In this document: one piece after another, positions 5,347 through 47,387 of the stretch
Position numbering within the stretch: position 1 is the first letter of the stretch
Layout of the letters: each line of letters starts with the position of its first letter
NCBI GenBank assembly: GCA_030149295.1
Contig: JASBRV010000135.1
Coordinates: 62,001 to 126,000 of the forward strand
DNA length: 64,000 bases
DNA from: Bacteriovoracales bacterium
GTDB taxonomy: Bacteria > Bdellovibrionota > Bacteriovoracia > Bacteriovoracales > Bacteriovoracaceae
Direction: 5' to 3'
Translations under genes and position numbers: made by a program
The notes under the pieces: generated by a model
What the model was told of the DNA's origin: nothing
Seen by the model: only the letters and a program-made list of their open reading frames with translations
Databases searched by the model: none

Positions 5347-5394
5347 AAATTACATAATAGTGTGCATTTTTTTCAACAACCGAGCATTTTAGTC

Positions 5395-41516: not shown

Positions 41517-42185
41517 ATGAATTTTAAACTTCTCGCAACCTCGATATTCCTTTTGTTTCTCTGTCATGCTTCTTGGGCCGGTTATCATATGATTGCCGAG
41601 GTCGCAGACGTAAAATGCCTTTCACAAAGTAGTCTTAATAATGACCTGATTACCAGGGTTGGGATCAAGGTTGAAGGGGCTACGCATGAGGAGATGAAAC
41701 AGTTGTCTCAATTTATTCAAAGCCTTATTGAATTGACCAATGAGCAACAGGCAATTCACCTTTTATCTGGCTTAAAGGTTGTTTTTAAGGACATTCTAGG
41801 TGATACGAGTGTGGGCAGTTGCTTACCCGCTCATCAACTTGTGAGAAATCAGATTCATATAGGAAGGTTTTGTAAAAGCTCCAAAGGAAAAAAACTTGTC
41901 ATTCCCTATCGTGAGGGCATTCTCATTCATGAAATGGGTCATTTTGTTGCCAATAAGCATGGTTTCTATGGGCAGTATAAAGCAAGTGTAAAAAGAAAGT
42001 GTAAGCTTTCACCTTATATGTCAAAAATGAGCAATGGAAAAAAACATCGCAATCGCAACGAAGAGTTTGCTGAAGTATTCGCATCTTATTTTCTCTATGG
42101 TAAAAAACTAAGAAGAAAGTGCAGAAAGAGTTACGCTTTCTTTAAAGAAAGGCTTTTTCTCGATAATAATTCGAATTGTTTATAG
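41517..42185 (+). CDS. Exported HEMGH zinc metallopeptidase-like protein
   Basis: 222 residues. Signal peptide 1-21 (cleavage near SWAG). The zinc motif is LIHEMGHFVANKHG with His138, Glu139 and His142; a downstream helix NEEFAEVFASYF (181-192) offers the third, acidic ligand of a gluzincin such as the anthrax lethal-factor-like group. The Cys residues and short length fit a small secreted protease. It is the third exported protease candidate within 12 kb. Family level is not certain. Confidence 0.78.
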   Translation: MNFKLLATSIFLLFLCHASWAGYHMIAEVADVKCLSQSSLNNDLITRVGIKVEGATHEEMKQLSQFIQSLIELTNEQQAIHLLSGLKVVFKDILGDTSVGSCLPAHQLVRNQIHIGRFCKSSKGKKLVIPYREGILIHEMGHFVANKHGFYGQYKASVKRKCKLSPYMSKMSNGKKHRNRNEEFAEVFASYFLYGKKLRRKCRKSYAFFKERLFLDNNSNCL

Positions 42186-42205
42186 TTCTTAAAAGGAACT
42201 TCTCA

Positions 42206-43405
42206 TTGATTGAAAGTAAGACCCACTATACTCCTACTCAAAAGAGGCACATATCTCAAAAAGTCACAATCCTTGGCTCAATAGCAGACGCGCTTCTTGG
42301 CTTTTTAAAGATTTTTATTGGCCTTAGTTTTCACTCTCAAGCACTCATTATTGATGGGATTCATAGTTTTACGGATGTCTTTTCGGATGTCTTTGTGGTT
42401 TTTATTACAAGACTTTCCCATGAAGGTCCGGATGAAAATCATCCTTACGGACATGAGAAGTTCGAAACGATTGGTTCAGCAGCTCTAGGTTCTATCTTAA
42501 TCGCCACTGGTGGCGCCCTTATTTATGAAACGGTGAAGTCTCTTTGGTCCGGTGAGCTTCCACCTCCCCCAGGAACCCTTACTTACTATGCTGCAGGTCT
42601 TTCCTTAGTTGTTAAGGAGTTTCTCTTTCAATACACCTATCGTGCGGGTCAAAAGATTGAAAGTAAGTTGATAATGGCCAATGCTTGGCACTCGCGAACT
42701 GATGCTCTTTCTTCACTTGTTGTTTTGATTGGCCTCATTTTTTCCGGTTTTGGTTTTACTGTGGTTGATAATATCGCGGCTATTATCGTTTCTTTGATTA
42801 TTGCCAAGGTGGGCTGGAGCTTTGTTAAAGAGAGTTTAGTTGAATTGGCCGAAACGAGTGCATCCGATGAACTGGAAAATAAAATAAAAGACATAATCCT
42901 TAATGTTGGGGGAGTAGAGAGTTGTCATGCTTTAAGAACTCGAACGATGGGGCATAAAGTTTTATTAGATGTTAATATAGAGGTCGATGCTCATTTCAGT
43001 GCCTCTGAAGGCCATGAAATTTCAGCTTGGGTTATCAAGAATTTAAAAGAGAGTGTTAAAGAGGTGGAGGATGTGACAGTTCACATTGACGTTGAAGATG
43101 ATCGAGATCCAACAAATGAGGAGCTGCACGCTCATGATTATGAAAATCTTCTCCCTCTTCGCAATGAAGTCCTAACTGAATTAGAGAAGCGATGGTCTGA
43201 ATTCCCACTTTTAAAAGATGCTCATGCTATTAGGCTTCACTACATTAAAAGAAAGATAATCGTTGAAATTGTTCTTCCCTTAAACCTTAAAGAGAGCTCT
43301 CTTTACTCCGATCCAAATTCCTTGGAGTCTGAACTCGATGAAAAAGCTAAATGTCTAAATTGGTATGGAAAGACCACTCTTCTCTTTGGACGATTAGGTT
43401 ATTAG
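42206..43405 (+). CDS. Cation diffusion facilitator (CDF) transporter
   Basis: About 399 residues from TTG 42206, which has AAAAGGAAC at proper spacing; TTG 42176 is the in-frame alternative and would overlap the protease gene. Six membrane helices with the CDF metal site in LIIDGIHSFTDVFSD (helix 2), ENHPYGHEKFE and AWHSRTDALSS (helix 5, HxxxD). The C-terminal cytoplasmic domain (about 220-300) has the metal-binding ferredoxin-like fold, followed by a second similar domain to the end. The family exports Zn, Fe, Mn or Co. The duplicated C-terminal domain is longer than usual. Confidence 0.9.
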   Translation: MIESKTHYTPTQKRHISQKVTILGSIADALLGFLKIFIGLSFHSQALIIDGIHSFTDVFSDVFVVFITRLSHEGPDENHPYGHEKFETIGSAALGSILIATGGALIYETVKSLWSGELPPPPGTLTYYAAGLSLVVKEFLFQYTYRAGQKIESKLIMANAWHSRTDALSSLVVLIGLIFSGFGFTVVDNIAAIIVSLIIAKVGWSFVKESLVELAETSASDELENKIKDIILNVGGVESCHALRTRTMGHKVLLDVNIEVDAHFSASEGHEISAWVIKNLKESVKEVEDVTVHIDVEDDRDPTNEELHAHDYENLLPLRNEVLTELEKRWSEFPLLKDAHAIRLHYIKRKIIVEIVLPLNLKESSLYSDPNSLESELDEKAKCLNWYGKTTLLFGRLGY

Positions 43406-43500: not shown

Positions 43501-43572
43501 TCGCGCTTTAACATTCACTAGACCCCGCTTTTGGGCATTGGGCCCATTAGCCGTTTAGTCCAGGAGGTTTTT

Positions 43573-44196
43573 ATGATCTATGAGTTGGCCCTAGTGGCGA
43601 AACCGGAATCTACTGAACAGGACGTTGCTACGCTTAAAGCAATTGTTCACGAAGTAGTCAAAGCTCACGACGGTGAAGTTTTCATCGAAGATGAGTGGGG
43701 AAAAATGACTTTTGCACAACCTACAACAGAGGGTATTGGTGCAGGTCATTTTGTTTATTTCATCTTTAAGGCGAATAGCGAAAACAACAAAGAGCTTATC
43801 CGTCGTCTTAAAATTAGCGATTTTCACCTACGTCACATGTTTGTTGCCCTCGGGGAAGATGAAGAGCGTGAAGCCATCGTTAAAGGCTACAAAACTCCTT
43901 TCTCAAAGACTTACAAAGGTTCTGTCACCGAAAAAGAAGGTGATGAAGAAAGTGATAATCCAAAGAAATTTGCTCGTCGTAAGTCATGTTACTTCAAAGC
44001 AAATGCTGTAAAGGCTGATTGGAAAGATCCAGCGACTTTTACTTGGCTTATTAATGAATTTGGAAAGATCTCTCCAGCTCGTGTTACAGGTGTAAGCCGT
44101 AAACACCAAAGATTTGCTACGACTGCTATTAAAAGGGCTCGTCAAATTGGTGTTGCTGCCTACGTTTCTAATAGAACTGCGGAGCTTCGCGCTTAA
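43573..44196 (+). CDS. rpsF-rpsR: Fusion of ribosomal proteins S6 and S18 in one polypeptide
   Basis: 207 residues from the ATG at 43573 (AGGAGG five bases upstream). Residues 1-105 are S6: MIYELALVAKP start, WGKMTFAQP, GHFVYFIFKA, LRHMFVAL. Residues about 106-132 are a charged linker (VTEKEGDEESDNPKK). Residues 133-207 are a full S18: FARRKSCYF, GKISPARVTGVSRKHQRF, AIKRARQIGVAAY. All codons read through in one frame, and there is no in-frame ATG, GTG or TTG in the linker to start S18 separately. S6 and S18 bind each other on the 30S platform. The gene starts the conserved order S6-S18-DUF2232-L9-DnaB. Confidence 0.95.
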   Translation: MIYELALVAKPESTEQDVATLKAIVHEVVKAHDGEVFIEDEWGKMTFAQPTTEGIGAGHFVYFIFKANSENNKELIRRLKISDFHLRHMFVALGEDEEREAIVKGYKTPFSKTYKGSVTEKEGDEESDNPKKFARRKSCYFKANAVKADWKDPATFTWLINEFGKISPARVTGVSRKHQRFATTAIKRARQIGVAAYVSNRTAELRA

Positions 44197-44206
44197 GTAG
44201 AAAGAA

Positions 44207-45256
44207 ATGATGTCAGAAGAAAAGAAGAACGAAACACATTCTCAAGATCTAGGAAATCATGGCAGCGATGACATGAAATCTCTTTTGATCCCTGAGTTGA
44301 ATACAAGTAAGCTTGCCTTTCTTGGTGTTCTAGCGTTCCTTTTTTCTAGCCTAGAGCCCTTTGCTCTCTTTGCTTCTATTCCTTTTACCATTAGTTTTTT
44401 ACTTTATGGAAAATGGAAAACGTTTGCTATGGGAGTTGTGGGATGCTTAGTTGCTTTTCTTCTCGTTCAGGTGAAATTTAACCAAGGAAGTGCCTTGGGA
44501 ACTTTTCCCTTAGCCCTCATCTATGGTTACCTTATTTCGAGAACCATACGTTTGAAAAACCATCCTCTACAGGGCATCGTAACCAATGGTGCAGCCATAT
44601 TTGCTGTGATCATAGGTCTTGTCCTAATGGTCAATTTTCAAACAGAAGGTGGACTTAGAGGAATATTGACTCCGTATGTGGAGCAAACGGCAACTCAGTA
44701 TCACGAGAGTCTCGTTAATGCCGTTGGTGCGCAAGGTGAGCAGTTACGTCAATTGAAAGATGTTATGAATGATCCATCACTCGTGGTTGATCCTATCCTT
44801 CAATATGGAACGGGCTTTGTCTTTGTCACCATTATGATTTCCTTTTGGGTGGGAACGTTTGTGGTTCTTAGAATGGGTGCCTTGTGGAGACCCTTTCATG
44901 AGTATCCTCACGATGTAAAAACCCTAACAAGCTTGAAGTTGCCCTTTCCCATGGTTTGGCCCCTCATGGGAGTCCTTGCTTTGGCAATAGGTCATGCTTA
45001 TGAGTTTTTAGGAAGTTGGGCAGAAATTATTGGTCTCAATGGCTTAATGGTCTTTGGAGTATTTTATTTCTTCCAAGGCTTCGGCATTTTAAGTGAGCTG
45101 CTCACTTACTGGCATTTCTTTGGTTTCTTAAGAAGTATGGCGATTTTTTTCGCTGTGATTATGGCCTATCAAATTCTAACCCTCGTCGGAGTACTCGACA
45201 CTTGGATTGATTTTCGTAGGTTTTTTACAAACAAAAATGAAGAAGAAAAATTTTAA
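44207..45256 (+). CDS. DUF2232 (YybS-like) membrane protein
   Basis: 349 residues with about eight membrane helices; the N-terminal 30 residues are polar. It lies between the S6/S18 gene and rplI, exactly where DUF2232/YybS genes sit in Firmicutes and delta-proteobacteria, and the hydrophobic profile agrees (ALIYGYLISR, MVWPLMGVLALAIG). Its biochemical role is unknown; the steady genomic partnership suggests a link to ribosome or division physiology. The start may be ATG 44207 or the adjacent ATG 44210. Confidence 0.85.
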   Translation: MMSEEKKNETHSQDLGNHGSDDMKSLLIPELNTSKLAFLGVLAFLFSSLEPFALFASIPFTISFLLYGKWKTFAMGVVGCLVAFLLVQVKFNQGSALGTFPLALIYGYLISRTIRLKNHPLQGIVTNGAAIFAVIIGLVLMVNFQTEGGLRGILTPYVEQTATQYHESLVNAVGAQGEQLRQLKDVMNDPSLVVDPILQYGTGFVFVTIMISFWVGTFVVLRMGALWRPFHEYPHDVKTLTSLKLPFPMVWPLMGVLALAIGHAYEFLGSWAEIIGLNGLMVFGVFYFFQGFGILSELLTYWHFFGFLRSMAIFFAVIMAYQILTLVGVLDTWIDFRRFFTNKNEEEKF

Positions 45257-45267
45257 GGAGATACAAA

Positions 45268-45894
45268 ATGAAAGTTATTCTTACTGAAAAGGTAGCTTCT
45301 CTTGGTAACGTAGGTGAAGTAGTGAATGTTTCTGCTGGTCATGCAAGAAACTTCCTCATTCCTAACAAGAAAGCTGTTCTTGCTGATGAAGCAAACAAAG
45401 CGCAAATGAACCATTACAACAAGATGCTTGCGAAAAAAGTATCTGAGGAAAAAGCAGCTGCCGAAGCACTAGCGAAGCAATTAAATGGTCAGAATATCGA
45501 ACTTATCAAGAAAGTTGGATCTAATGGTCGTCTTTTTGGGACAGTAACAACTACTGAGCTTTCAAAAATCCTTTCTGACAAAGGTATTGAAGTTGAAAAG
45601 CGTGTCCTTACTGTTGATAACCCAATTAAAGCGGTAGGTTCTTACACTGTTAAAGCAAAGCTTTTTTCTGGAGTAGAAGCTGAGTTTGGTGTGAAAGTTG
45701 AAATGGACCCTAAGCAAGCAGAAGAAATGAAGAAAAAGGCTGAAGCTGCAGCGAAGAAAAAAGCGGCAAAGGCTGAGGCTCAAGCTGAAGGCGCAGAAAA
45801 TGGTGAAGCCGAAGGTGAAGAAGCTAAGGAAAATCAACCTCTTACTGACGAGCAAAAACTCGCCAAAGAAGCTGACGAACTTCTTCGTTCTTAG
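45268..45894 (+). CDS. rplI: 50S ribosomal protein L9 with C-terminal extension
   Basis: 208 residues, against about 149 usual. Residues 1-50 hold the classic N-domain (MKVILTEKVASLGNVGEVV, AGHARNFLIP), followed by the connecting helix and C-domain (KVGSNGRLFGTVTTTEL) ending near residue 150. The extra 58 residues are Lys/Ala-rich and then Glu/Ala-rich (KKKAAKAEAQAEG, GEAEGEEAKEN), probably disordered or helical. The ribosome site AAGGAG sits before the ATG. A strong terminator follows. Confidence 0.95.
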   Translation: MKVILTEKVASLGNVGEVVNVSAGHARNFLIPNKKAVLADEANKAQMNHYNKMLAKKVSEEKAAAEALAKQLNGQNIELIKKVGSNGRLFGTVTTTELSKILSDKGIEVEKRVLTVDNPIKAVGSYTVKAKLFSGVEAEFGVKVEMDPKQAEEMKKKAEAAAKKKAAKAEAQAEGAENGEAEGEEAKENQPLTDEQKLAKEADELLRS

Positions 45895-45998: not shown

Positions 45999-47387
45999 AT
46001 GGATATGATGAATGAGGGAGCCGCACCTCAAAATAATCAAACCAAGAAAAGTTTTAATAAGGAACTTCCTCATGATCTTCTTGCAGAGAGATCTCTTCTG
46101 GGCTGTCTTATTATTGATGGTCAATCTTTTGATGATGTTTCCGACCTTAAGTTAGAAGGAAAAGATTTTTATCAACCAAAGTATGGAGTCATCTTTGAGG
46201 CCATCAGTGACCTTGCCATGGGTAACCAGGCCATTGATTACGTAACGATTAGCTCTCGCTTAAATGAGGCGGGAAAGCTGGAGCAAATTGGTGGCACCAG
46301 TGCAATCACGGATCTAGTTGAAGACCAGGCTTCAGCTGCGAATATTTATCACTACGCTAAAACAGTAAAAGATAAGTCTTCCTTGCGGGAAATTATTCGC
46401 ACTTCAATGAGAGTTACCGAAAGAGGCCTAAGTTTTCAGGGAAAGACCGAAGACTTTATCCAAGATGTCGAAGCTTCATTTTTTAAACTTACCAATGATG
46501 CCAAGTCAGGAAAAATGATGAAGCTCAATAGCTGTTTGAGGGAAAATCTCAAAGAGCTGGAAGATATGTCGCGAAACCCTGGGGAGATTCAAGGTCTAAG
46601 TACAGGTTATCCTAGGCTTGACTCGCTCCTTCTTGGAATGCAGCCCGGTCAGTTAATTATCTTAGCGGCCCGTCCTGCTATGGGGAAAACCTCACTAGCC
46701 CTAAATATTGCTAATAATGTTTGTGAACACCATGGAAAGCCTGTCGCTATTTTCTCTCTGGAGATGCTCGACAAAGAACTTTCTATGCGTCTTTTAAGTT
46801 CAAAGGCTAAAGTAGACTCTAAAAGATTGAGAACTAAAAACTTCTTGGATACTGATCTTCGAAATATTGGTCAAGCTGTGAAGGAGCTTTCGAGTTTTCC
46901 AATTTTCATCAATGATAATGGTGAATCGACGATTCTTGATATCCAGTCTCAGTGTAGGAAAATACAAGCAGAGCATGGATTAGGTCTTATTCTTATCGAT
47001 TATCTTCAGTTAATGAATCCTCATAACAAAACTATTTCTCGTGAACAGCAGATTTCGGAAATGTCCCGGGGCCTTAAGACATTGGCAAAAGAATTAGAAT
47101 GTCCTGTCGTTGCTCTATCTCAGCTTAATCGTGGAGTTGAGTCTCGCCCTAATAAAAGACCAACCACTGCGGACCTTCGTGAATCTGGTGCAATCGAACA
47201 GGATGCGGATATCGTCATGTTTGTTTATCGCGATGAAGTTTATAACCCTGATACAAAAGAGCCTGGGGTAGCCGAGATTATTGTGGGTAAAAACCGTGCC
47301 GGAGAAACAGGAACGGCTAAGCTGGCGTGGGTTGGTGCTTACACTAGTTTCGAAAACTTAACCTATCAGGACAATGAGCGCGATTAA
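45999..47387 (+). CDS. dnaB: Replicative DNA helicase DnaB
   Basis: 462 residues. The N-terminal domain (about 20-130) is the DnaG/loader-binding part (LPHDLLAERSLLGCLI), linked to a RecA-like motor with Walker A ARPAMGKTSLA, Walker B LILIDYLQLM, the QISEMSRGLK segment, SQLNRGVE and arginine-finger region. There is no intein. The hexamer unwinds DNA at the fork. GGGAG seven bases before the ATG supports the start. It follows rplI after a terminator, and its 3' end overlaps the pabB-like gene by 14 bases. Confidence 0.97.
   Translation: MDMMNEGAAPQNNQTKKSFNKELPHDLLAERSLLGCLIIDGQSFDDVSDLKLEGKDFYQPKYGVIFEAISDLAMGNQAIDYVTISSRLNEAGKLEQIGGTSAITDLVEDQASAANIYHYAKTVKDKSSLREIIRTSMRVTERGLSFQGKTEDFIQDVEASFFKLTNDAKSGKMMKLNSCLRENLKELEDMSRNPGEIQGLSTGYPRLDSLLLGMQPGQLIILAARPAMGKTSLALNIANNVCEHHGKPVAIFSLEMLDKELSMRLLSSKAKVDSKRLRTKNFLDTDLRNIGQAVKELSSFPIFINDNGESTILDIQSQCRKIQAEHGLGLILIDYLQLMNPHNKTISREQQISEMSRGLKTLAKELECPVVALSQLNRGVESRPNKRPTTADLRESGAIEQDADIVMFVYRDEVYNPDTKEPGVAEIIVGKNRAGETGTAKLAWVGAYTSFENLTYQDNERD

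Follow-up and report, generated by a model that had tools for sequence, protein, structure and literature searches.

Before joining the rRNA-S15 complex, the ribosomal proteins S6 and S18 pair as a heterodimer, and this S6:S18 complex acts as repressor of rpsF in E. coli (PMC4647458). In the E. coli rpsF leader, hairpin H2 adjoins stem H1, which holds the Shine-Dalgarno sequence, and the protein-binding site has conserved cytosines; repression needs S6 and S18 together (PMC4647458). S18 paralogues without the zinc-binding cysteines (C-) were described in mycobacteria (PMC9976891). A fusion of two ribosomal proteins, L10 and L12, was found in Candidatus Sulcia muelleri DMIN and verified by several sequencing methods (PMC2859065). 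Ribosomal-protein fusions are thus already known; for an S6-S18 fusion, no report was found in the open-access literature, and the preliminary description of this DNA knew of none either.

As shown in Table 1, one stop-free open reading frame in the window (the whole stretch of DNA that was analysed, 64,000 nucleotides) encoded a single chain of 207 amino acids in which bS6 and bS18, both complete, flank an acidic linker. Pfam found both domains in this one frame, in line with the fusion first read from the letters alone, and the S18 model TIGR00165 of NCBIfam also scored above its cut-off. The S6 equivalog model TIGR00166 gave 33.5 bits, under its cut-off of 42.9, and the S6 part is therefore divergent; PF01250 was matched by 20 of the 20 members of the Bacteriovorax/Halobacteriovorax family that were compared with it. 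The AlphaFold2 model of the fusion had a mean pLDDT of 79.5 and a pTM of 0.75, with the S6 part confident and the S18 part moderately confident. The best structural matches in a fold search with this model were ribosomal S6 chains; the matches listed were S6 chains only and bear on the S6 part. No sequence spanning both parts was found among the best 60 PDB matches listed. In-frame ATG, GTG or TTG occurred only at codons 1, 5, 8, 45 and 89; both the linker and S18 lack them, which leaves no common start codon for separate initiation of S18. The sole near-cognate start in codons 95-140 was ATC at codon 102. The preliminary description had reported a linker without stop or start codons and an AGGAGG upstream of the S6 start only, and both were confirmed. 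It had also stated that ssb or priB often lies between the two genes, which does not hold in this phylum: in the loci read from its other families, rpsF and rpsR were separate, usually adjacent and often directly so. The neighbourhood in the window was the usual rpsF-rpsR-rplI-dnaB.

Table 1. Features of the fusion gene, its leader and its downstream neighbours (positions in the window).
Feature	Position	Strand	Evidence or remark
5' strand CCCC (relatives usually ACUC/UCUC)	43523..43526	+	may pair with Shine-Dalgarno GAG/GGG
Leader hairpin, 25 nt	43527..43551	+	directly 3' of CCCC; position shared in 71 leaders
CCAGGAGG	43560..43567	+	conserved CC and Shine-Dalgarno of the fusion gene
Fusion ORF, 207 aa	43573-44196	+	bS6, linker and bS18 in one frame
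bS6 part, residues 1-105	43573..43887	+	PF01250, residues 3-91, 57.4 bits (cut-off 27), profile 2-89 of 90; pLDDT about 92; Z up to 16.1
Linker, residues 106-132	43888..43968	+	pN/pS 0.18 (residues 101-133); homologous tails in unfused sisters; pLDDT under 50 at residues 121-133
bS18 part, residues 133-207	43969..44193	+	PF01084, residues 146-193, 58.6 bits (cut-off 21); TIGR00165, 62.1 bits (cut-off 38.75); zinc cysteines 2 and 3 lost
DUF2232 membrane protein gene	44207..45256	+	PF09991
rplI (bL9)	45268..45894	+	PF01281, PF03948
dnaB	45999-47387		PF03796

A search of the whole source genome found no second S6 or S18 gene, and so no separate rpsR of the kind that the preliminary description had named as evidence against the fusion; each searched family genome with a match had exactly one S18 copy. 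The preliminary description had rightly taken the fusion to be real but treated it as a single case, and had proposed searching related genomes for both domains in one frame. In a census of 129 family genomes, 119 gave a match and 110 of these carried a single fused frame. The remaining nine had separate adjacent genes (five genomes; G007, G025, G031, G226 and G034), loci broken at contig ends (three; G014, G210 and G256) or an in-frame TAA (one; G032). Some fused census rows carried one stop, which was the normal terminal stop in the five that were read (L015, L018, L021, L032 and L036), and the other seven matched the pattern of these five. In an independent collection of genome contigs, 80 named loci were found; they included Bacteriovorax sp. 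BSW11_IV, Bacteriovorax sp. DB6_IX, Halobacteriovorax marinus and Bacteriovorax stolpii MAGs. The frame was open and fused in 78 of the 80, including the first three of these organisms. In a search that covered 57 to 59 relatives and 192 phylum genomes, the fusion was present in nearly all members of one family. Genome sizes in the fused family were about 1.6-5.6 Mb, most of them above 2.5 Mb. The fusion is a trait of nearly the whole Bacteriovorax/Halobacteriovorax family; it is real and long-lived, with both domains in one frame, no separate copies and conservation between species. In one MAG, a second weak S6-like match (G230:C102:364-744, 30% identity) lay beside the fused gene and is probably contamination.

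In the source genus (7 congeneric sequences of equal length), pN/pS was 0.19 for S6, 0.18 for residues 101-133 and 0.13 for S18, and changes in the linker were mostly at third codon positions (15/32/211). These values indicate that the linker is translated and selected as protein, and it evolves under purifying selection in this genus. The linker in the window is made up of an S6 tail (YKTPFSKTYKGS), an acidic stretch and an S18 N-terminal extension. Linkers of other fused proteins read YKTPYSN...DMEKDRKKFAKRKTCWF or similar, with a middle that varies in length and sequence. Unfused sisters have an S6 tail of KNYKSPF or similar and an S18 N-terminal extension such as MDFDKDKRMVMKRRSCWFC. In four of them (G034, G025, G031 and G007), rpsF and rpsR are adjacent and their tails match the linker (KNYKSPF..., DFDKDKR..RRSCWFC). 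Judged by this likeness, most of the linker derives from two older tails that became joined, one at the C-terminus of S6 and one extending the N-terminus of S18. The acidic linker named in the preliminary description was found, but it is more than an unrelated spacer, since much of it is homologous to the native tails. In one locus (L130, G032:C61) an in-frame TAA interrupts the linker at about position 5363 of the locus, at a codon that specifies Glu in relatives. Its S18 is of the fused type, with cysteines 2 and 3 lost, and no ATG, GTG or TTG lies between the TAA and S18; for these reasons the TAA is probably not ancestral but due to an error in the sequence, a site of readthrough or recent decay.

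A sequencing frameshift, against which the preliminary description had argued, was excluded: the frame is open in independent genomes (78 of the 80 loci), the seven congeneric sequences are equal in length, and purifying selection extends across their linker. An artefact of sequencing or assembly that joined two genes is extremely improbable. The source genome is indeed fragmented (140 contigs), but about 110 genomes from independent projects, together with isolate genomes, carry the same fusion, and the census refutes such an origin. Initiation within the linker could also yield a separate S18, making the fusion only part of the S18 pool. Many relatives do have an ATG in the linker, for example in DMEDD or KDKKM, and some of these codons have a weak purine-rich stretch upstream. 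However, the linker ATGs match Met residues that already lay within the ancestral S18 extension, and the window has no ATG, GTG or TTG from codon 90 to the end, nor do the congeners of the source organism have start codons in the linker. In 27 of the 78 fused genes, no such codon occurs between codon 99 and the S18 start; separate translation of S18 is therefore not general, and we consider internal initiation very unlikely.

A polyprotein deserves somewhat more weight, though it too is improbable. Here a protease would cut the disordered acidic linker, mature ribosomes would hold separate S6 and S18, and the fusion would only equalise their synthesis. The 27-residue linker is acidic and charged, and residues 121-133 are predicted to be disordered; eukaryotic ubiquitin-ribosomal protein precursors are cut (PMC8122580). 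However, the middle of the linker, varying as it does among fused proteins, has no conserved cleavage motif, and the ancestral tails account for its conserved parts. We know of no such protease for bacterial S6 or S18. We regard it as highly probable that the gene is a natural in-frame rpsF-rpsR fusion inherited from the ancestry of the Bacteriovorax/Halobacteriovorax family and that its product works as a single chain. The in-frame TAA in G032 and the presence of RimK-family ligases in the source genome, where S6 has no free C-terminus, count against this reading. The fusion protein most likely stays uncut and is built into the 30S subunit as an S6:S18 dimer tethered in advance.

The zinc site of S18 was changed in every fused protein examined. 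Cysteines 2 and 3 were lost in all 78 fused proteins and the first cysteine was kept in all 78; the second was replaced by S, T, K, A, R, I or L, and the third by S, T, R or N. S18 in the window reads C-Y-F-K ... S-R-K-H and lacks the C+ zinc ribbon C-x2-C ... C-x2-H. The unfused family members examined have C+ S18 (CWFC ... C-x2-H). Zinc ligands are likewise absent from the separate S18 of a Bdellovibrio-like genome (L059), and their loss therefore does not require fusion. The upstream neighbour of the fusion gene (42176-43405) encodes a cation efflux protein with a zinc-transporter dimerisation domain; its position beside a zinc-less S18 is probably a coincidence.

The fusion looks like the result of losing the rpsF stop codon and a short spacer between adjacent genes in the ancestry of the family, which would have left a single frame, because the linker resembles the S6 tail and S18 extension of the unfused sisters. 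In G034, the spacer between rpsF and rpsR is under 40 bases. On the RpoB tree, G034 and the pair G025/G031 lie near the base of the family. Unfused genomes separate two fused groups on the best tree, and a single fused clade was not rejected (p-AU 0.3, lnL difference 4.7). A single origin coupled with loss of the zinc site is the simpler explanation, since the two zinc cysteines were lost in common and going back to separate genes would require both to reappear.

In E. coli, a RimK-family ligase glutamylates the free C-terminus of S6, and the N-terminus of S18 is acetylated. RimI and RimK were searched for, as the fusion might have led to their loss, and the pattern was mixed. RimK-family matches above the cut-off were common in fused genomes, and the source genome has such a ligase (G000:C12:200644-201495 and relatives). 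Because the only S6 there has no free C-terminus, this ligase may act on another substrate or on the C-terminus of the fusion. Canonical RimI exceeded the cut-off in several families with unfused genes but seldom in the fused one; it was weak in unfused Bdellovibrio-like genomes too. In an uncut fusion, the N-terminus of S18 is not free for acetylation and the C-terminus of S6 is not free for glutamylation.

The leader upstream of the gene was compared by folding each sequence against dinucleotide shuffles. The conserved elements follow the order ACUC or UCUC, replaced by CCCC in the source genus, then a hairpin starting from the G directly after it, about 7-20 nt of spacer, and CCAGGAGG. Either CCAGGAGG or CCAGGGGG was present in 35 of 46 distinct leaders. 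The presumed pairing partners were CUC/GAG in 23 of the 46, CUC/GGG in another 13, and CCC/GAG in the source genus. Across 71 leaders, the hairpin region had a median MFE z-score of -3.5 against the shuffles, and a helix of at least 6 bp starting at that G was found in 80% of leaders versus 5.5% of shuffles; pair types varied at positions 2-6. A control that reshuffled the arms was biased, the arms having been chosen by folding, and the dinucleotide shuffles are the fairer comparison. RNAalifold gave no structure on the MAFFT alignment of the leaders, because hairpins of variable length misalign; the arms stayed misaligned even after trimming. The element was not clear upstream of two loci (L048 and L049) and partly visible upstream of a third (L050). 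Of the features of the E. coli rpsF leader, a hairpin and a CC beside AGGAGG are conserved here; the likeness is one of architecture, and no Rfam match for the leader was found. By this analogy, the leader is a candidate S6:S18-binding autoregulatory RNA through whose conserved hairpin the fused protein may repress its own translation.

Taken as a single chain, the protein would fold into a ready heterodimer, its S6 and S18 parts binding each other and then the 30S platform like the normal S6:S18 heterodimer, with the flexible linker from the old tail and extension joining them. Such a chain would be pre-assembled and, if uncut, would fix the ratio of the two proteins at 1:1, which supports the stoichiometry suggested in the preliminary description on the same proviso. 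A broader reading, in which the whole family has a 30S subunit with covalently tethered bS6-bS18, a zinc site lost with the fusion and autoregulation through a leader RNA absent from Rfam, seems to us evenly balanced between true and false. If it is true, the 30S subunit of this family has one protein fewer. The family would then be a natural test of whether parts of the ribosome can be permanently tethered, and of the need for free exchange of S6 and S18, a free S18 N-terminus and a free S6 C-terminus. The fusion also marks the family clearly at the level of gene structure, and it indicates that two core ribosomal genes can become joined and remain so across a deep radiation, in genomes of mostly ordinary size.

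The locus shares with the rpsF-rpsR(-rplI) operon of E. coli and B. subtilis the same two proteins in the same order, and a leader hairpin that contains or adjoins the Shine-Dalgarno sequence; rplI lies downstream, as it does in E. coli. Those bacteria make S6 and S18 as two proteins, with priB between the genes in E. coli, whereas here they form a single polypeptide. The S18 part resembles mycobacterial C- bS18 in the loss of zinc-binding cysteines (PMC9976891), but here there is no other S18 beside the C- form, which is fused to S6 and keeps the first cysteine. In eukaryotic ubiquitin fusions a ribosomal protein likewise lies within a longer chain, but the partner is not ribosomal and is cut off. 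Like L10-L12 of Sulcia (PMC2859065), the fusion joins two interacting neighbour ribosomal proteins in one gene; that case concerns the large subunit stalk in one strain with a tiny endosymbiont genome, whereas the S6-S18 fusion extends through a whole family.
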